From: Bacteroidota bacterium
GTDB lineage: Bacteria; Bacteroidota; Rhodothermia; Rhodothermales; UBA10348
NCBI GenBank assembly: GCA_029262835.1
Contig: JAJCYQ010000099.1
Location: forward strand, 1-64,000
DNA length: 64,000 bases
Direction of reading: 5' to 3'
In this document: positions 47,768 through 58,192 of the stretch, piece after piece
Position numbering within the stretch: position 1 is the stretch's first letter
Layout: each line of letters begins with the position of its first letter
Translations under genes and position numbers: made by a program
Notes under the pieces: generated by a model
Databases searched by the model: none
What the model was told of the DNA's origin: nothing
What the model saw: the letters and a program-made list of their open reading frames with translations, nothing else

Positions 47768-49678
47768 TCAGCGTAAAATAAGCTCCAGCACCCTCTCGGC
47801 CGCCTCCTCGGGCGTCATTGCGGCGCCGTCTATTCTAAGCTCAGGGCCTTCAGGCGCCTCGTAGGGCGAGTCAATGCCGGTGAAGTTGGGGAGCTCGCCC
47901 GCTCGGGCGCGGCGGTAGAGGCCCTTTGGGTCGCGGGCCTCGCAGACGGAAAGCGGCGTATCGACAAAGACCTCCAGGAACTCGCCGTCTTCCATCAGGC
48001 TTCGAGCCAGCTTGCGCTCGGCGCGGAAAGGCGAAATAAACGAGCAGATGACAATCAGTCCGGCATCTACCATGAGGCGGGCGGCCTCCGCAATCCGGCG
48101 GATGTTCTCCACCCGGTCGGCATCCGTAAACCCAAGGTCCCTGCAGAGCCCGTGCCGCACGTTGTCGCCGTCCAGGAGGTAGGTCTTTCGGCCCATGGCA
48201 TGCAGCCGCTTCTCCACAATGTCGGCAATCGTCGACTTGCCGGACCCCGAAAGCCCCGTAAACCACACGCAGCGCGGACGCTGCGCCATGTTCTGGGCGC
48301 GGGCCGCCTTGTTGACGGTCACCGCCTGCCAGTGGATGTTTGTCGCGCGCCGCAGCGCGTGCTGGATCATGCCGGCCGCGACGGTGGCGTTCGTTTCGCG
48401 GTCAATCAGGATGAAATTCCCGGTCGCGGCGTTTTCTGAAAACGGATCGAACGCAATGTCCTTGCCGAGCGCAAGGTTCGCAAGGCCCACCTCGTTCATT
48501 TCGAGCGTCTTTGCGGCCTCCTCGGCGAGCGTGTTGATGTTGACGCGCGCCTTGAGCTCCGTCACCTGCGCGGGCGCCGTGTCCGTGCCAGATTTCAGCG
48601 GGTACATGCGGCCGGGAAGAAGCGGCTCGGCGTGCAGCCAGACGAGGTGCGCCTTGAACTGGTCGGCGATCGATGGGCGCGCCTGGGGCGCCGCGAGCAC
48701 GTCCCCGCGGCTCACGTCGATTTCGCGGCTGAGCGTAAGCGTTACGGCGTCGCCCGCAACGGCGACGTCGAGGTCGCCACTCATGGTCACAATCCGGTCA
48801 ATGTTGGCCTTCTCGCCGCTTGCCGCGACCGCGACCTCATCGCCCGGGCGGACCGCGCCGCTTGCAACGGTCCCCGCGAAGCCGCGAAACGCGCTGTCGG
48901 GGCGCTGAACGAGCTGCACCGGAAAGCGGAAGGGTAGCTGCGCGCGGGCGTCTTCCACGTCGACGGTCTCGAGGTAGTCAAGGAGCGTAGGCCCCTTGTA
49001 CCAGGGCATGTTGGCGCTCCGCTCCATGACGTTGTCGCCGCGAAGCGCAGACACGGGAATGGCCCGGATGTCCGGAAAGCCGAGCGGGGCGCTGAACGCG
49101 CGGTAGGCATCTGTTATTTCGCGAAAGAGGGCTTCGTCGTAGCCCACAAGGTCCATCTTGTTGACGGCGAGCACGACGTGCCGAATACCGACGAGGCTCA
49201 CGAGGTAGCTGTGCCGCTTGGTCTGCGCGAGCAGGCCGCCCTCGCGGCTGACGGCCGCCGCATCTACCAGAATAACCGCGGCCTCGGCGTTCGATGCGCC
49301 GGTTACCATGTTCCGCGTATACTGCTCGTGGCCGGGCGTATCGGCGACAATGAACTTGCGCCGGTCGGTGGAAAAAAAGCGGTAGGCGACATCGATCGTA
49401 ATCCCCTGCTCGCGCTCGGCCTCGAGGCCATCGAGCAGCAGCGCGTAGTCAATGCCCCCCTGCTGGGTGCCGACGCGCTTCGAGTCCGCCGTAAGCGCCG
49501 CCAGCTGATCCTCATAGATCAGCTTCGAGTCCCAGAGCAGGCGGCCAATCAGCGTCGACTTGCCGTCGTCCACGCTTCCGCACGTTATGAAGCGAAGCAG
49601 GCCCGTCTCGTGCTGGTGCCTGAGGTACGCTGCGATGTCCGTGTTACCGCTCTCCGCCGGGTCGTTTGGTGTGCTCAT
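47768..49678 (-). CDS. cysNC: Bifunctional sulfate adenylyltransferase GTPase subunit / APS kinase
   Basis: A 636-residue fusion. The N-terminal CysN half is an EF-Tu-like GTPase: [19 protein letters not shown] (G1), [12 protein letters not shown] (G3), [11 protein letters not shown] (G4). After a short linker the C-terminal 180 residues are APS kinase: [14 protein letters not shown] (Walker A), [18 protein letters not shown], and [15 protein letters not shown]. Together with CysD it makes PAPS, the sulfate donor for sulfotransferases. I chose the ATG at 49678, which overlaps the cysD stop region. A longer frame to 49729 is rejected. Confidence 0.93.
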
Positions 49679-49679
49679 C

Positions 49680-50627
49680 CTAGAAATACCCCTCCTGCTT
49701 CTTTTTTTCCATCGATCCCGACTGGTCAAAGTCTATAATGCGGCCTTCGCGCTCGCTGGTTTTGGCAAGGAGCATTTCCTGCACGATTTCGGGGAGCGTC
49801 GTCGCGGTCGATTCGACGGCCGCCGTGAGCGGGTAGCACCCGAGCGTGCGGAAGCGCACCATTTTCATTTCGGGCTCTTCGCCGGGCCGGAGCGGAATGC
49901 GGTCGTCGTCCACCAGAATCCACTGGTCGAAGCGCCTCACGACGGGGCGACGGGCGGCGAAGTAAAGCGGCACGATTTCGATCTCTTCCTGGTAGAGATA
50001 CTGCCAGATGTCAAGCTCCGTCCAGTTCGAAATCGGAAAGACGCGGATGCTCTCGCCCGGGCGCACGCGCGTATTGTAGAGGTTCCAGAGCTCCGGGCGC
50101 TGGTTCTTGGGGTCCCAGCGGTGCTGCGCGGTGCGGAAGCTGAAGACGCGCTCCTTGGCGCGGGACTTCTCCTCATCGCGCCGCGCGCCCCCGAACGCCG
50201 CGTCAAACTTGTACTTGTCGAGCGCCTGCTTGAGCGCTGCCGTCTTCATGACGTCCGTGTGGTAGGCCGATCCGTGGTCGAACGGGTTTACGTTTTGCCT
50301 CACGCCCTCCTCGTTCGTGTGCACCAGCAGGTCCAGATCGTACTCCTTCGCCACCCGGTCCCGAAACGCAATCATCTCGCGAAATTTCCAGGTCGTATCT
50401 ACGTGCAGCAGCGGAAAAGGAATGCGCCCTGGGTAGAACGCCTTCCGCGCCAAATGCAGCATGACGCTCGAATCCTTACCAATCGAGTACATCATGACCG
50501 GGTTCTCAAAGCTCGCCGCCACTTCGCGCATGATGTGGATGGCCTCCGCTTCCAGGCGCTCGAGGTGGGTGCGGCTGGGGAGAGCGGGCTGCCCGGCGTC
50601 CGTTCTACTTGATTCCGAAGGAGACAT
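49680..50627 (-). CDS. cysD: Sulfate adenylyltransferase subunit 2
   Basis: A 315-residue ATP-sulfurylase PP-loop subunit: [21 protein letters not shown] (PP-loop), [35 protein letters not shown], and the CysD tail ERQGRxxD-like [25 protein letters not shown]. It starts at 50627, where GGAG precedes the ATG, and its first 23 bp overlap the end of the broken DUF2061 reading frame. It forms one transcription unit with cysNC. Confidence 0.93.
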
Positions 50628-50811: not shown

Positions 50812-51022
50812 TTTGGAGCGATAGGTGGTGCAGAACACGCAAAATACGGCCTCCGGCTGTCTGAGCCTACGCCTCACGCCGCCATCCCTTCCCTTGCTAC
50901 CTCAGTAGCACGTCTCCAGCCCCGGAGTGGCGCGATTCCCTCCCCCTGCCTTCCACAAACAGCCTTTTCAGCCCGTTTGGGCTACTTTTACGGCTTACAG
51001 GCCGTGCCGCATTCCATTTTTC

Positions 51023-51139
51023 CGGCGCAGTACCTCCCCTTTTTGGCGCCATTCCGCCCTGATTTGGCGCCATCTCATCTCCGTGTGGCGCACATCCACA
51101 GGACTCCGGCGCGCGCCACCCCAAGTATGGCGCGCGCCG
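51023..51139. repeat. Six-unit 21-bp phased array ending in a 12-bp hairpin
   Basis: YGGCGC starts at 51023, 51044, 51065, 51086, 51107 and 51128, exactly 21 bp apart. The units differ outside this core. The last two form a perfect inverted repeat: CGGCGCGCGCCA at 51107-51118 and TGGCGCGCGCCG at 51128-51139, with a 9-base loop. The array fills part of the 395-bp gene-free stretch 50812-51206 upstream of the DUF2061-cysD-cysNC unit. A related array in the other orientation lies at 57994-58192. Confidence 0.75.
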
Positions 51140-51206: not shown

Positions 51207-51434
51207 TCACGCGTTCAGCTCTGTCTCAATGTTTTCCTTGGTATCTACCAGTATCGAGAAGCCGTAGCGCGGCAACATCTCCTCGAATGTGCGGCGCGTC
51301 ATCCCTAATATTTCCCGGGCTTCGCGCCCAGAGACCTTTCCGTTGCTGTAGAGGGTAGCAACCAAGGCCTCCCGAGCGTACCGCTCGTCAACGTGGAGAT
51401 CAGAGCGATCTGGAAGAGTGATGGTGACTTTCAT
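51207..51434 (-). CDS. UPF0175 family protein (antitoxin-like)
   Basis: A 75-residue protein from the ATG at 51434. MKVTITLPDRSDLHVDERYAREALVATLYSNGKVSGREAREILGMTRRTFEEMLPRYGF matches UPF0175, small helix-turn-helix proteins that often act as antitoxins to PIN-type toxins. No PIN gene follows directly downstream on this strand. The nearest toxin-like genes are on the other strand at 52.2 kb. The frame extends upstream to 51551, but those residues fall outside the family. Confidence 0.75.
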   Translation of the reverse strand: MKVTITLPDRSDLHVDERYAREALVATLYSNGKVSGREAREILGMTRRTFEEMLPRYGFSILVDTKENIETELNA

Positions 51435-51576
51435 AACCTTACTACCCGCTGAATTGAGCGATCCTACCGGCCTTCTAACGCCCCCTGTGTTTCTGAGTTC
51501 AGTGCCATGGGTGCCCGAGAGTGGACAGAAGAGTATCCCCCCGCTATGCACGCACTCCTCCCTCCGGCGCGCGCCG

Positions 51577-51934: not shown

Positions 51935-52249
51935 ATGCCTACAAAAACCCTCAATCAGCATATCGAATCCCGACCTGATGTGCTGGGTGGTAAGCCCTGT
52001 GTCGCGGGGCGACGGATCGCGGTCGAACACATTGTCGTCTGGCATGAACGACTTGGACTCAGTGCGGACGAGATCGCGAGCCAATACGATCTGGAGCTTG
52101 CGGAAGTATATGCGGCGCTGGCCTACTATTTCGCCCATCGAGCGGAAATCAATCAGTCAATGCACGAAGGAGAAGCCTTCGTTCACAGCCAACGGGAACA
52201 GACCCCCTCCTTGCTGAATGAGAATTTCAGGCGTCGAACTGGGGCCTGA
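51935..52249 (+). CDS. DUF433 antitoxin
   Basis: A 104-residue protein. After HIESRPDVLGGKPCVAGRRIAVEHIVVWHERLGLSADEIASQYDLELAEVYAALAYYFAHRAEI comes a charged tail. The GGKPxxxGxRI and helix-turn-helix-like pattern is DUF433. It overlaps the DUF5615 gene by 1 bp, the standard arrangement of DUF433-DUF5615 pairs, which behave as toxin-antitoxin modules of the PIN/VapC class. Confidence 0.85.
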   Translation: MPTKTLNQHIESRPDVLGGKPCVAGRRIAVEHIVVWHERLGLSADEIASQYDLELAEVYAALAYYFAHRAEINQSMHEGEAFVHSQREQTPSLLNENFRRRTGA

Positions 52250-52581
52250 TGAGCACCGCGATTCGTTATTTCACAGACGAGCAAGTCGCAAAAGCGGTAG
52301 CCGATGGACTCCGCAAACGGGGCATAGATGTCCTTACCGTCGCACAGGCCAAATTGCTCGGAGCAACAGACGAAGAGTTACTGTCGTTCGTTCGTTCGGA
52401 ACAACGAGTGCTCATTACTCAGGACCAGGATTTTTTGCGGTTGGCAGCCAATGCGTCCAATCACCCAGGCATTGTTTATGCACCGCAGGGATCCTCCATC
52501 GGCGAACTCGTAAGAATGTTGGATCTATTATATCAGATAAGCAACATGGAGCAATTGAGTGGGCGCGTCGAGTCTATTTGA
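52249..52581 (+). CDS. DUF5615 PIN-like toxin
   Basis: A 110-residue protein with RYFTDEQVAKAVADGLRKRGIDVLTVAQAKLLGATDEELLSFVRSEQRVLITQDQDFL, the DUF5615 pattern. The acidic residues DE (first strand), TDEE and DQDF form the PIN-like metal site. It should be an RNase restrained by the upstream DUF433 protein. Start and stop of the two genes overlap, indicating coupled translation. Confidence 0.85.
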   Translation: MSTAIRYFTDEQVAKAVADGLRKRGIDVLTVAQAKLLGATDEELLSFVRSEQRVLITQDQDFLRLAANASNHPGIVYAPQGSSIGELVRMLDLLYQISNMEQLSGRVESI

Positions 52582-52637
52582 GAATCGGAGGCTGCAGCAG
52601 TCGAGCGTATCTGGCGGAATCAAACCGGAGCAGAGAC

Positions 52638-52856
52638 ATGGAAATCAAAGAACTTGACACGGTCGTTCTGAACAGGGCGATACCAGCGCACAACCTGAAG
52701 CAAGGAGACATGGGAGCGGTCGTCGCCACCTATCCCCCCGATGGTATTGAGGTTGAATTCGTTGCCGGCGCGGGGCTCACGCAGGCTCTGGTGACGTTAA
52801 ACATCCATGATGTGCGCCCCGTCGCGCCCCGAGATCCAGAATCCGGTCCAGTCTGA
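52638..52856 (+). CDS. DUF4926 domain protein
   Basis: A 72-residue protein starting MEIKELDTVVLNRAIPAHNLKQGDMGAVVATYPPDGIEVEFVAGAGLTQALVTLNIHDVRPV, a full DUF4926 domain (small SH3-like barrel). Such proteins recur in toxin-antitoxin islands beside RNase-like toxins, usually as a proposed antitoxin. Here it ends 43 bp before the first HEPN gene. Confidence 0.78.
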   Translation: MEIKELDTVVLNRAIPAHNLKQGDMGAVVATYPPDGIEVEFVAGAGLTQALVTLNIHDVRPVAPRDPESGPV

Positions 52857-52899
52857 CGGCCGGAAAAAACTGCGCTGCTGCGGTTATGTTGAGCCGAAC

Positions 52900-53295
52900 A
52901 TGATTTCAGTCGAATCCTTGGAGGAGGTCGCAGCCGCGCGGCTGGCAGACGGAAGAGTGTTGTCCCGTGAAGGCCGGTACGTGGCAGCGTTGTACCTGAG
53001 CGGCTACGCCATCGAGATCAAGCTGAAGGCCCAGATTTGCAAAAACCTTGGGTGGACCGGGTTTCCAGAAACGGCGAAGGAGTTCGAGAATTACCGAAGC
53101 TTCCGAACCCACAACCTGGACGTCCTCCTGTCCATGACCGGTATGGCGGCGCACATTCTTGCTGAACACTGGGTGGAGTGGTCGGAGGTCGAAGCCTGGA
53201 ACCCGGCGCAGCGGTACCAATTAGACGCAACTGTAAGCCGCGAGCACGTACATCGCACACTGGAGGCAGCAACGACACTGCTGAATGCCCTATGA
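52900..53295 (+). CDS. HEPN-domain protein, copy 1
   Basis: A 131-residue all-helical protein. RYVAALYLSGYAIEIKLKAQICKNLGW is the first long helix pair typical of HEPN proteins, and RSFRTHNLDVLL at 66-77 carries the R-x4-H ribonuclease motif (Arg66, His71) in its usual context before an L-x2-LL helix. HEPN proteins in such islands are RNase toxins or their scaffolds. No MNT nucleotidyltransferase, the common partner, is present. Its stop overlaps the start of the partner gene (ATGA). The second copy at 54535 is about 94% identical. Confidence 0.75.
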   Translation: MISVESLEEVAAARLADGRVLSREGRYVAALYLSGYAIEIKLKAQICKNLGWTGFPETAKEFENYRSFRTHNLDVLLSMTGMAAHILAEHWVEWSEVEAWNPAQRYQLDATVSREHVHRTLEAATTLLNAL

Positions 53296-53690
53296 ACAAG
53301 GAAATTCTCAACAAGTGGATCGAAATCGAAAAGAAATTGGCCTCTGAACGCGGCCGGTTCCGCCTATTTGGTCTCTTCATGAAGGAAGAGGTCTGGGATA
53401 AGTGGTTCATCCTGGCTTCAGCTCCCTGGATTGACGAACTTGGGCTGGATGGCCGCTTGGTAATTGGGCAGGAGTATGCCAATAATTTCTCCGGCCATGA
53501 CCTGCTGCATTTTTCCGGCATTCAGTTGTTCGACGAAGATCACCCGTCGGTGCAGGAGGTGCTCGAGGAAGTCAACGTTGAGCACGGAAAGGTGCTGCTC
53601 AAGGACTTCGAGTTCGACGGATACACCATTGGGCGCGCATATATCATTACGGCGCAGGTACTGGAGCCGAAAGCGGAGGCTGCGAGGTGA
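53292..53690 (+). CDS. Unknown partner protein of the HEPN module, copy 1
   Basis: A 132-residue acidic protein coupled to the HEPN gene by a 4-bp ATGA overlap. The N-terminal helix MNKEILNKWIEIEKKLASE is followed by RFRLFGLFMKEEVWDKWFILASAPWIDELGLDG, a strand-rich middle, FSGHDLLHFSGIQLFDEDHPSVQEVLEE, and a C-terminal strand pair ending YTIGRAYIITAQVLEP. I recognise no named domain. Strict coupling to a HEPN gene and co-duplication make it the candidate antitoxin or co-effector. Confidence 0.7.
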   Translation: MNKEILNKWIEIEKKLASERGRFRLFGLFMKEEVWDKWFILASAPWIDELGLDGRLVIGQEYANNFSGHDLLHFSGIQLFDEDHPSVQEVLEEVNVEHGKVLLKDFEFDGYTIGRAYIITAQVLEPKAEAAR

Positions 53691-53705
53691 GTTTCGCCCC
53701 CGGCG

Positions 53706-54110
53706 TCAGGGAATAACGAGTTTGAGCGAACGCGCTCCGTGCTTCCGGTAGATTCGAAAATCAGCATCCAGCGTGAAAATGGTCCCGTCTGTCTGCTCTG
53801 CCATACAGACAAGACAGGCGTCGGCGAAAGCCATCGGGACATTTGAGTACGTGTGCATCAGCTTACCGACCCGATCCAGATTTTCCAGGACGAGGGTGGT
53901 CAATTCAATTTTCCCCGTGGCAAGCATATCTGTCAATCGGGCGCGCCCATTTGGCGCGCGACCGAGCAGGAAATGAGCCTCGGTCAGAACGGCTTCGCAC
54001 GTATAGAATGGCGGTGGCATTTCACCAGCCCTATTGACGCTCCATTCATGATGGAAATCACGCTGGTTCAGAAGAGCGACCAATGGGCCCGTAGCGAGTA
54101 ACGTCCTCAT
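53706..54110 (-). CDS. PIN-domain (VapC-like) protein lacking the first catalytic Asp
   Basis: A 134-residue PIN-domain protein: MRTLLATGPLVALLNQRDFHHEWSV, CEAVLTEAHFLLGR, VPMAFADACLVCMAEQ and IFTLDADFRIYRKHG. The first motif is normally LLDTGPLVALL. Here codon 6 is GCT (Ala), so the first metal-binding Asp is missing, while the Glu of LTEAH and the Asp residues of FADA and LDADF remain. The protein is probably impaired as an RNase. It lies 7 bp downstream of its antitoxin gene. Confidence 0.82.
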   Translation of the reverse strand: MRTLLATGPLVALLNQRDFHHEWSVNRAGEMPPPFYTCEAVLTEAHFLLGRAPNGRARLTDMLATGKIELTTLVLENLDRVGKLMHTYSNVPMAFADACLVCMAEQTDGTIFTLDADFRIYRKHGARSLKLVIP

Positions 54111-54375: not shown

Positions 54376-54534
54376 GGTCGTCACCAATTGGTTTACCTGG
54401 TCCCAAACGTTGAACCAATCCGAAGGTTGCAACATGTGACATGGTGTTGCAACCGGAAAAAACTGCGCTGCTGCGGTTATGTAGCGCTGGCCGGTGGGTC
54501 TATGAGGTAGACGCATCACCAATATCAGCTGAAC

Positions 54535-54930
54535 ATGATTTCAGTCGAAACACTCGAGGAGGTCGCAGCTGCGCGGCTGGCAGACGGAACAGTCTTATGC
54601 CGTGAAGACCGCTACGTGGCAGCATTGTACTTGAGCGGGTATGCCATCGAGATCAAGCTGAAGGCACAGATTTGCAAAAACCTCGGGTGGACCGGGTTTC
54701 CAGAAACGGCGAAGGAATTCGAAAACTACCGAAGCTTCCGGACGCACAATCTGGACGTGCTCCTGTCCATGACCGGGATCGCGGCACACATTCTGGCTGA
54801 ATATTGGGTGGAATGGTCACGAGTCGAGCCCTGGAACCCGGCGCAGCGGTATCAATTAGACGCAACTGTAAGCCGCGAGCACGTACATCGCACTCTGGAG
54901 GCAGCAACGACACTGCTGAATGCCCTATGA
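54535..54930 (+). CDS. HEPN-domain protein, copy 2
   Basis: A 131-residue paralogue of the protein at 52900, differing at 8 positions by my alignment and keeping the R-x4-H motif RSFRTHN and all flanking residues. Most changes (R19T, S22C, G25D, E96R-type) lie outside the motif. The intact frame argues both copies are under selection. It overlaps the next gene by ATGA. Confidence 0.75.
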   Translation: MISVETLEEVAAARLADGTVLCREDRYVAALYLSGYAIEIKLKAQICKNLGWTGFPETAKEFENYRSFRTHNLDVLLSMTGIAAHILAEYWVEWSRVEPWNPAQRYQLDATVSREHVHRTLEAATTLLNAL

Positions 54931-55325
54931 ACAAGGAGATTCTCAACAAGTGGATCGAAATTGAAAAGAAATTGGCCTCTGAACACGGCCGGTTCCGCCT
55001 ATTTGGTCTCTTCATGAAGGAAGAGGTCTGGGACAAGTGGTTTGTCCTGGCTTCGGCTCCGTGGATTGATGAACTGGGTCTGGATTCCCGCGAGGTTATT
55101 GGGCAGGAGTATGCCGATAATTTCTCTGGCCACGATCTGCTGCATTTTTCCGGCATTCAGTTGTTCGATGAAGACCATCCGTCGGTCCAGGAGGTGCTCG
55201 AGGAAGTCCATATTGAGCACGGAAAGGTGCTGCTGAAGGACTTCGAGTTCGACGGATACACCATTGGGCGCGCGTATATCATTTCGGCGCAGGTGCTGGA
55301 GCCGAACGCGGAGGCAGCGAGGTGA
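54927..55325 (+). CDS. Unknown partner protein of the HEPN module, copy 2
   Basis: A 132-residue paralogue of the protein at 53292, with about 9 substitutions. FGLFMKEEVWDKWF, SAPWIDELGLD, SGHDLLHFSGIQLFDEDHPSVQEVLEE and YTIGRAYII are unchanged. Differences cluster around residues 54-63 and 94-96, possible specificity positions if partner binding has diverged between the two pairs. Confidence 0.7.
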   Translation: MNKEILNKWIEIEKKLASEHGRFRLFGLFMKEEVWDKWFVLASAPWIDELGLDSREVIGQEYADNFSGHDLLHFSGIQLFDEDHPSVQEVLEEVHIEHGKVLLKDFEFDGYTIGRAYIISAQVLEPNAEAAR

Positions 55326-55398
55326 CCGTCGCCTCCGGCGTCAGGGAATAACGATCCGGCCTATTCTCCGAAGCCTTCCATGGTCTGGTGTTGCAACG
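55326..55398. pseudogene. Deletion scar of a second VapBC pair
   Basis: Three short segments follow each other: TCAGGGAATAACGA (55341-55354, also at 53706-53719, the 3' end of the PIN gene), a 28-bp piece (55355-55382, also at 54112-54139 with one mismatch, the PIN/antitoxin junction), and TGGTGTTGCAAC (55386-55397, also at 54442-54453, upstream of the antitoxin). The coding bodies between them are gone, so two deletions removed vapC and vapB. Confidence 0.78.
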
Positions 55399-55399
55399 G

Positions 55400-56554
55400 T
55401 CACGCCCCTGCATCCAGAATCCGGTTCATCCCGAGGGCGCTGATCGTCGCACTGAGCGGGAATACGTCATCTCCCGGGTACACGATGTGGGCGTTGTCCA
55501 GTTTCAGGTCCTTGCAGGCGGTCCGGAGTGATGGCGTAATGTGCGGCGAATCTGTGTGTTTGATCTCAAATCCGATGCGCCGTCCCCCCGCTATCAACAT
55601 CAGGTCGAGTTCGGCGCGGCCGTAGACGGACCAGAAATAGCAGTCGCCCGGATCGGCCCGGTACTGCCGGATGATGCTCTCCAGCGCGAAACCTTCCCAT
55701 GACGGGCCGAGTTTCGGGTGGAACTGTAGGGCATCCTGACTGTCCAGGCCGAGAAGCGTGTGCAGGATGCCAGAATCGCGAATGTAGATCTTCGGCGATT
55801 TTACCTGCCGCTTTTTGATGTTTTCGTGCCACGGAGCGAGCTGCCGGACCATGAATGTGGACGACAACAGGTCAAGATAGCGCCTGATCGTGTTGTCAGA
55901 CGCGCCGAACGATCGGCCCATCTCGGAATAGTTCATGGTCTGCCCGTGATAATGGGCGAGCATCATCCAGAATCGGCGTAGCGCCTCAGGTGCGATATTG
56001 ATTCCCAGCGCGGGAATATCGCGCTCCAGGAACGTGGCAACGTACGCTTTTCGCCAGGCCGCCCCGGCCCGCTCGGATGCCGCCAGAAATGACGGAGGGT
56101 ATCCGCCAGCATGCCACAGGTGACGCATGTGCCCGGGACCAACTTCGGCCAGCGACAGCGGGGTCAATTCGATATGGCCAATTCGACCGGCCAGCGATTC
56201 GGATGACTGAGGGATCAGGTCGCGGGAGGCGCTCCCCAGAATCAGGAATCGGACGGGGCTGTAGGGTCGGTCCACGAGCACCCGCAGCACCTCGAAGAGG
56301 TCAGGCGCCCGCTGCACCTCATCGATCACCACGAGTCCCCGCAGATCCTGGAGCGCAAGTTTGGGCGATTCGAGACGCGCCCGATGAAGCGGATCCTCCA
56401 GGTCGAAACGCGTTACGCTTCCCGTAGCGTACCTGTCCGCGTACATGCGGGCCAGCGTCGTCTTGCCGCATTGCCGCGGCCCAAGGATGGCCACCACCGG
56501 ATGCACGTCAAACTGAAACCGTATTTCCTCAAGGTATGCGGGGCGTTCGATCAT
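55400..56554 (-). CDS. AAA+ ATPase with DUF4143 (first)
   Basis: A 384-residue protein. VVAILGPRQCGKTTLARMYA is Walker A, LVVIDEVQRAPDLFEVLRVLVD Walker B, and RFLILGSASRDLI sensor 1. DUF4143 follows from about residue 200, with RFWMMLAHYHGQTMNYSEMGRSFGASDNTIRRYLDLL (winged helix) and FWSVYGRAELDLMLIAGGRRIGFEIKHTD, a PD-(D/E)XK-like segment. The family is widespread in accessory islands and its cellular role is unsettled. Four 10-bp-phased GTGAA-type repeats lie 34-68 bp upstream of its start. Confidence 0.85.
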   Translation of the reverse strand: MIERPAYLEEIRFQFDVHPVVAILGPRQCGKTTLARMYADRYATGSVTRFDLEDPLHRARLESPKLALQDLRGLVVIDEVQRAPDLFEVLRVLVDRPYSPVRFLILGSASRDLIPQSSESLAGRIGHIELTPLSLAEVGPGHMRHLWHAGGYPPSFLAASERAGAAWRKAYVATFLERDIPALGINIAPEALRRFWMMLAHYHGQTMNYSEMGRSFGASDNTIRRYLDLLSSTFMVRQLAPWHENIKKRQVKSPKIYIRDSGILHTLLGLDSQDALQFHPKLGPSWEGFALESIIRQYRADPGDCYFWSVYGRAELDLMLIAGGRRIGFEIKHTDSPHITPSLRTACKDLKLDNAHIVYPGDDVFPLSATISALGMNRILDAGA

Positions 56555-56761: not shown

Positions 56762-57244
56762 TCAAAGGCTGACAGGCGGTTCCGCGGAGTCCGTAATGGT
56801 TACGTCCACGGACTTGTTGGCCAGGCGGAGGAGCGTGAGGAGCTGTCCAAGTGACTTCGAAGGGCTGTTCCGGTCGAAGAGGCGGTAGATCTGGGCGGGC
56901 GAGGTGCCGAGTATTCGGGCCACCTGTCGTTTTCCGAGCCCGCTCTCCGCAAGTCCCCTTTCGGCTGCCGTCGCCAGTCGGTGCAGGAGCAGCTCCTCCA
57001 GATACTCTGGATCCAGGTTCACTTCCCTCACCGCATCCATATGGATGGTATCCTCCTCTCCCGACGCCAACGCATACGTGAACGCCTCGCACCCCAATTC
57101 CGGATCAGGGTACACCCGAGCCACCGGATTCTCCTGCGTCGGCTGCAGCCTCAGCTTGACGTATGGAAACAGATACGTTCGGCCACCGGCACGGACACTG
57201 AACTCCCGGCTGCGGCGATTCGGTTTGACGTCAGATATTTTCAT
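56762..57244 (-). CDS. Helix-turn-helix protein paired with DUF4160
   Basis: A 160-residue protein. The N-terminal half (RTYLFPYVKLRLQPTQENPVARVYPDPELGCEAFTYALASGEEDTIHMDAV) is strand-rich. The C-terminal half has a helix-turn-helix, GLGKRQVARILGTSPAQIYRLFDRNSPSKSLGQLLTLLRLA. The ATG at 57244 overlaps the DUF4160 stop (ATGA), as in toxin-antitoxin pairs, where this would be the DNA-binding partner. Confidence 0.65.
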   Translation of the reverse strand: MKISDVKPNRRSREFSVRAGGRTYLFPYVKLRLQPTQENPVARVYPDPELGCEAFTYALASGEEDTIHMDAVREVNLDPEYLEELLLHRLATAAERGLAESGLGKRQVARILGTSPAQIYRLFDRNSPSKSLGQLLTLLRLANKSVDVTITDSAEPPVSL

Positions 57245-57435
57245 ATTGCACCGTTTTCTCGAAGCTCATCAATAAGCTTCCGAACCTTTGCCGTTGCACA
57301 TCCTTTCATGGCAATGTTGTTTTCAAGATCCCACTTCACAATGAGCCGCCCATCTTTGTAGACATGAACATGGTACGGATCGTGATCGCCCACCCACGTC
57401 AAGAATACGTAGCCACCCCGCCTTATCTTCCCCAT
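57241..57435 (-). CDS. DUF4160 domain protein
   Basis: A 64-residue protein with YVFLTWVGDHDPYHVHVYKDGRLIVKWDLENN, the DUF4160 signature (GDHxPxHVHV) with Tyr in place of the second Pro. DUF4160 genes usually pair with DUF2442 or small HTH proteins and are proposed toxin-antitoxin components. The gene is upstream of, and coupled to, the HTH protein. Confidence 0.72.
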   Translation of the reverse strand: MGKIRRGGYVFLTWVGDHDPYHVHVYKDGRLIVKWDLENNIAMKGCATAKVRKLIDELRENGAI

Positions 57436-57781: not shown

Positions 57782-57876
57782 AAGACGCAGGCTCAGCCTT
57801 CAGACTTTGAAACATGAGCCTGCTTCCTGGGCTGGCAGGTCTGCACCGCGTATGTCACTTGGTGGATTTTTGAAAG
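57782..57876. repeat. Dispersed direct repeat, copy B
   Basis: It matches 1316-1410 over 95 bp with about 8 mismatches, same orientation. It is part of a gene-free stretch (57436-58256) that otherwise holds a degenerate minus-strand reading frame and the phased array at its right end. One frame reads KHEPASWAGRSAPRMSLGGF. Confidence 0.85.
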
Positions 57877-57993: not shown

Positions 57994-58192
57994 GTCGCGC
58001 GCCATGTTGAATGTGGCGCGCGACACGAACGGCCGTGAGCCCGCCACTGGCAGTGGGATGTGGGCCGTCTTGGCCTTCTACCGCGCCATTTGAGGTGCCT
58101 CTCACGCCATGAAATCAGACGGGCAAGGTCCAAATACCTCGTTTTCAGCATTATTTGAGGGGTTTTTCCGGTTTTGGCCGCGATTCGCGCCA
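57994..58192. repeat. 21-bp phased array with 11-bp hairpin, opposite orientation
   Basis: CGCCA ends at 58004, 58046, 58088 and 58109 (multiples of 21 bp), with a further GCGCCA ending at 58192, one base out of phase. At the left end GTCGCGCGCCA (57994-58004) and TGGCGCGCGAC (58014-58024) form a perfect 11-bp stem with a 9-base loop, the same geometry as the hairpin at 51107-51139. Some positions in the series are degenerate. Confidence 0.55.

Follow-up and report, generated by a model that had tools for sequence, protein, structure and literature searches.

A 64-kb stretch of DNA (the window) was found to carry an element of ~7.3 kb, which runs from terminal site to terminal site between positions 50928 and 58192 and has two converging arms. 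It is one of ~25 paired-arm elements found in seven genomes from two genera (g1, to which the window belongs, and g5) of one bacterial family. The elements suggest a family of transposon-like DNA that has not been described before, and literature searches turned up no account of one. With moderate confidence, we take the arms in the window to be the ends of a non-autonomous transposon-like element with a Tn7/Mu-like layout, moved or bound by a protein acting in trans. The parts of the element are as follows:

50928–50937, plus strand: left terminal site, TGGCGCGATT, lying 95 bp (9 turns) outward from the first core; the same position class is seen in 48 other arms
50938–51022, plus strand: left subterminal spacer, of a 95-bp length class common to elements E and F (same contig) and to arms of genome G001
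51023–51133, plus strand: left array, six YGGCGC cores with a pitch of exactly 21 bp
51107–51139, unstranded: left inner palindrome, an inverted repeat of 12 bp with a 9-base loop
51140–57993, unstranded: center with small genes (Pfam), 6.9 kb
57994–58024, unstranded: right inner palindrome, an inverted repeat of 11 bp with a 9-base loop
57999–58109, minus strand: right array, six positions at 21-bp steps, partly decayed
58183–58192, minus strand: right terminal site, reading TGGCGCGAAT, lying 83 bp (8 turns) outward from the first core

The left cores start at 51023, 51044, 51065, 51086, 51107, and 51128 (CGGCGC, TGGCGC three times, CGGCGC, TGGCGC). Both the six exactly spaced cores and the left palindrome with its loop were correctly described in the first-pass annotation of this DNA. 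The reverse-orientation series reported there is also present, with its palindrome and loop, but is decayed: TGGCGC is exact at 2 of the 6 positions, and one core has two changes. The outer terminal sites were absent from that account, and the 117-bp array that it treated as the unit is really one of two arms. A search of the 3.45-Mb genome for GCGCGCCA-N9-TGGCGCGC with up to one mismatch returned the left inner palindrome and position 57997 only. Since the inner palindrome is unique in the genome to the two window arms, both arms belong to one element of 7.3 kb. The hairpin was seen in 2 of the 23 arms tested, both of them in the window; it is not general, and the idea that it is part of the design is not supported.

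In the window, the longest chain of GGCGC at 21-bp spacing has six members and occurs once, while none of 500 dinucleotide shuffles gave a chain longer than two. In the whole assembly (G000; 3.45 Mb, 103 contigs), a pattern of three TGGCGC words spaced 21 bp apart, in which two mismatches were allowed, matched 50 times, against none for a backwards control pattern. The phased series is thus beyond chance frequency, as the earlier proposal supposed. A position-weight-matrix scan of the window recovered two arms, at 51023–51133 and 57999–58109, and no others. The window arrays are neither an ordinary repeat nor an artifact. That arms in general are tandem repeats of 21 bp that have decayed, or heptad repeats in coding sequence, with TGGCGC recurring by chance, is highly improbable: the matches in viral contigs, and several at the order and phylum levels, are mostly of this kind, and spacer identity within arms is slightly raised (0.31 vs. 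0.28 under shuffling), but within-arm spacers are nearly random, the arms are paired in opposite orientation and have phased terminal sites, nearly all lie between genes, and for the g1 and g5 arms the explanation is already contradicted.

In each arm, a gap separates the terminal site, which is TGGCGCGATT (in G002, TGGCGCGAAA), from five to six TGGCGC cores, whose pitch is exactly 21 bp in g1 and 20–21 bp in g5. Among 49 arms, the gap between the terminal site and the first core ranged from 62 to 158 bp and almost always corresponded to whole 10.5-bp turns (R = 0.92 overall, and 0.95 and 0.94 when each genus is taken separately), with a best period of about 10.6 and a residual scatter of ~0.6 bp. 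In g5, the gap is typically 62 bp on one arm and 115 bp on the other, and therefore the left and right ends differ. Phasing of the arm-to-arm distance was at most weak (R = 0.48, p about 0.016). The geometry of the sites argues for one protein or complex bound on one face of the helix. Across dozens of copies in two genera, site distances change almost only by whole turns, a series that comes from natural variation and not from an experiment; these gaps may be read as the evolutionary record of a DNA–protein complex constraining its own geometry.

Besides the window pair, the same genome contains copies at contigs C20/C80, C46, and C96, and four arms forming two tandem elements at C99:65831–66944. 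Arms were also found in G001 and G002 of the same genus and in G007, G013, G017, and G020 of the other genus. Nearly all are intergenic. Most copies are about 400–700 bp long, have TGGCGCGAT...ATCGCGCCA ends, and contain no gene; the "non-coding" label of the first-pass annotation fits these but not the window copy, an exception that encloses about ten small genes. In G007, dispersed copies of a subfamily lie at different loci and are 78–85% identical. A sequence model (R1) was trained on 24 arms, all of them from g1, and gave E = 3.9e-18 for the best arm. The two window arms, themselves part of the model, scored E = 5.0e-11 over 51022–51114 and E = 5.5e-11 over 58018–58112, and g5 arms, which were outside the training set, were recovered at E values down to 3.5e-9. 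This recovery is an independent check on the family.

No convincing paired arms were found outside g1 and g5 among 394 phylum and 245 class genomes, where the strongest matches were tandem repeats. Convincing arms were likewise not found in G022 and G024 of the other genus or in G003, a 94% complete genome of the window's own genus and its closest relative by the one gene compared (89% identity, a flanking protein). An in-gene match in G007 contig C18 (~31 bits) turned out to be ordinary coding sequence, and single arms scoring near 31 bits were therefore not trusted. A viral origin was set aside, the 45 viral-contig matches inspected all being single-orientation arrays, mostly tandem repeats with conserved spacers; tRNA-linked insertion was set aside too, as the window contains no tRNA. 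Nothing in the window matched Rfam.

Several side observations concern these searches. In another family of the same order, TGGCGCG(ATT/TTT) is repeated in 4–9 tandem copies of a single orientation, with a pitch of one helical turn (10–11 bp), at L330:1500–1600 (G110), L174:1500–1590 (G113), and L176:1505–1545 (G037); these arrays possibly bind the same protein as the arms. Tandem repeats of 21 bp, in which both a TGGCRC core and the spacers are conserved, were seen in distant phylum members (L175 and L182 in G342, L180 in G266). Contigs often end inside an arm or next to one (C20/C80 of G000, C22 and C62 of G001, C10 and C237 of G013), perhaps because the centers of the elements are variable in the sampled population.

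Several elements occupy the same place in different species, as judged by synteny of flanking genes. At these loci the cores are about 86% identical and the spacers 40%, in agreement with the earlier proposal that the core and its spacing, and not the intervening sequence, are under selection. The case for long-term selection is strong but not final, since related copies may have inserted independently at the same spot. These data bear on the suggestion that the arms are fossils, relics of an old transposon family that nothing binds now. A resident transposase was not found, the copies have diverged, and one window arm has decayed, as would be expected of relics; the cores and their helical phase, however, have been kept amid spacers of near-random identity, which implies selection until recently. 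We therefore consider fossils quite unlikely.

Comparison of insertion sites in relatives, put forward in the first-pass annotation as a check, gave clean empty sites for two elements, with both flanking genes syntenic and the comparisons being between species only. The genes that flank the C46 element are 712 bp apart in G000 vs. 78, 29, and 62 bp in G003, G001, and G002, respectively; for the element on C14 of G002, the distance is 695 bp vs. 88, 92, and 143 bp in G001, G000, and G003. A six-core arm on C102 of G000, with neither terminal site nor partner, adds 147 bp (7 × 21) in frame to a long gene; the insertion is absent from the ortholog in G003. In G017 and G020, the ribulokinase gene has a long in-frame insertion containing such arrays, whose relation to the family is less sure because the spacers there are partly repetitive. 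No matching bases that would indicate a target-site duplication were seen beside the terminal sites in elements compared by eye, the boundaries being uncertain since homology between copies can run on past the terminal sites. In G007 copies, the left flanks of L086, L195, L196, and L200 share ~75 bp followed by a run of 7–9 G just outside the terminal site; read by eye as protein, the shared part resembles a piece of an IS3-type transposase.

The main rival to transposon ends is a host function: the arms would be chromosomal arrays to which a nucleoid, partition, or looping protein binds, spread through the genome by copying and retained for the benefit of the host. Cores far better conserved than spacers at syntenic loci across species, strict helical phasing, and the mostly intergenic location of the arms fit such a role, and cores that stay intact at syntenic places in several species, unlike dead insertions, count against transposon ends. 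On the other hand, there is no convincing arm in G003, G022, or G024, individual sites have been gained or lost between species, and the terminal site and the asymmetric 62/115-bp ends look transposon-like. We regard arrays kept for the host as possible but doubtful. Of the options offered earlier, two fit and do not conflict with each other, namely a protein-binding array and a mobile element; a partition or nucleoid site, which would be expected at fixed positions in every member of the lineage, is less likely, since G003 has no convincing arm and the loci differ between species.

The reading of the arms as transposon ends moved in trans draws on the set-apart terminal site, the phased inner group, the opposed orientation of the ends, and the 5'-TG termini, as in Tn7-like elements and Mu. 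Each end would present one terminal site and, whole turns away, an array of cores two turns apart, along which copies of one protein would bind on a single face of the DNA. This protein, assumed to be the same for all sites, would be a transposase or recombinase supplied in trans that pairs the two ends. Most copies would be short non-autonomous versions, while the window copy would have gained a toxin–antitoxin-like cargo, which may move with the ends.

The ends of phage Mu are also multi-site, with the outermost site apart from the inner group. The arms share with Mu and with Tn7-like elements (arrays of TnsB sites) several direct sites per end at a ~20–22-bp pitch, opposed orientation of these transposase-type sites at the two ends, a set-apart outermost site, 5'-TG ends, dependence on helical spacing, and defense-rich cargo. 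They differ in that no TnsA/B/C or MuA-like gene was found with them, no 5-bp duplication was seen, each end has 5–6 inner sites in which only a 6-bp core is conserved, and most copies are gene-free. The layout of the arms is a new variant of multi-site transposon ends, membership in a named family being unproven. Tn7-like ends are arrays of sites around defense-rich cargo (PMC8649781), and the activity of a Tn7-like CRISPR-associated transposon varies with a periodicity of about 10 bp in the spacing of binding sites (PMC10201428).

Resemblance to other known systems is partial. Like MITEs, the elements are short, mostly non-coding, and dispersed between genes, with inverted terminal repeats, occasional in-frame insertion into a gene, and clean empty sites (between species only); unlike MITEs, they have phased arrays in place of a single terminal repeat, some copies carry kilobases of cargo, no duplication was seen, and at the loci read no parent or resident autonomous transposon with matching ends was found. 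Plasmid iterons form tandem sets of about five binding sites with a pitch of roughly two turns. The arms likewise have about five tandem sites at two turns, but are multi-copy in chromosomes, occur as opposed pairs with no Rep gene seen nearby, and conserve 6 bp. Rickettsia palindromic elements are about 150 bp long and lie in-frame within protein genes (PMC10969869), similar in size and position to the 147-bp in-gene arm; they carry conserved peptide-coding sequence, whereas the arms conserve core and spacing only.

The search for a mobilizing protein covered both the window and the related genomes. Pfam detected no transposase-like domain among the window frames scanned between the arms and no tyrosine integrase-type domain, as in integrons, among the window proteins scanned. 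At the loci read, no transposase was found inside or beside any element inspected, and no arm encloses one. The rve domain (integrase core) is absent from G001 and G013, both of which bear elements, draft genomes being liable to miss genes. The rve transposases of G000, G002, and G007 were rejected as movers, having no arms nearby and, where scanned, being IS-like; so was a 623-aa rve frame on C8 of G002, Tn7-like by size, whose neighbors are glycosyltransferases and similar genes. A search for Mu-transpos_C picked up nothing even in its controls and is uninformative. Taken as transposon ends, the arms would delineate a family that lacks its mobilizing protein and so offers a target for further searches.

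Between the arms of the window element, Pfam identified the following:

51207–51551, minus strand: UPF0175
51935–52249, plus strand: DUF433
52249–52581, plus strand: DUF5615/PIN-like
52218–52856, plus strand: DUF4926
52900–53295, plus strand: HEPN, weak
53706–54110, minus strand: PIN
55400–56554, minus strand: AAA_14/DUF4143
56762–57244, minus strand: HTH, weak
57247–57435, minus strand: DUF4160, weak

The families from UPF0175 to HTH in this list, the weak matches among them included, are typical toxin–antitoxin partners. In G001, arms enclose a DoxX gene on C22, and on C87 AAA_21 and DUF4276 adjoin an arm, with HsdM further on. Were the arms transposon ends, they would offer a sequence-only way to delimit cargo such as defense genes. 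A more speculative and rather unlikely view is that the arms were built for one protein polymerizing along one DNA face in two-turn steps; dispersed yet kept at fixed places, they would represent a mobile element turned chromosomal scaffold, or a landing site collecting toxin–antitoxin and defense genes.

The cargo contains an 828-bp duplication (52892–53719 vs. 54527–55354, 90.7% identical), which holds the weak HEPN-like gene and a partner. Short palindromes like AGGCTCAGCCT, perhaps terminators, occur at 57790–57802 and at L083, L084, and L085, near several elements. Finally, for the CysN/C-like protein encoded at 47768–49729, the best named matches (56–68%) are in Proteobacteria and scattered phyla, near relatives possibly having been outside the search, which suggests horizontal transfer of this gene.
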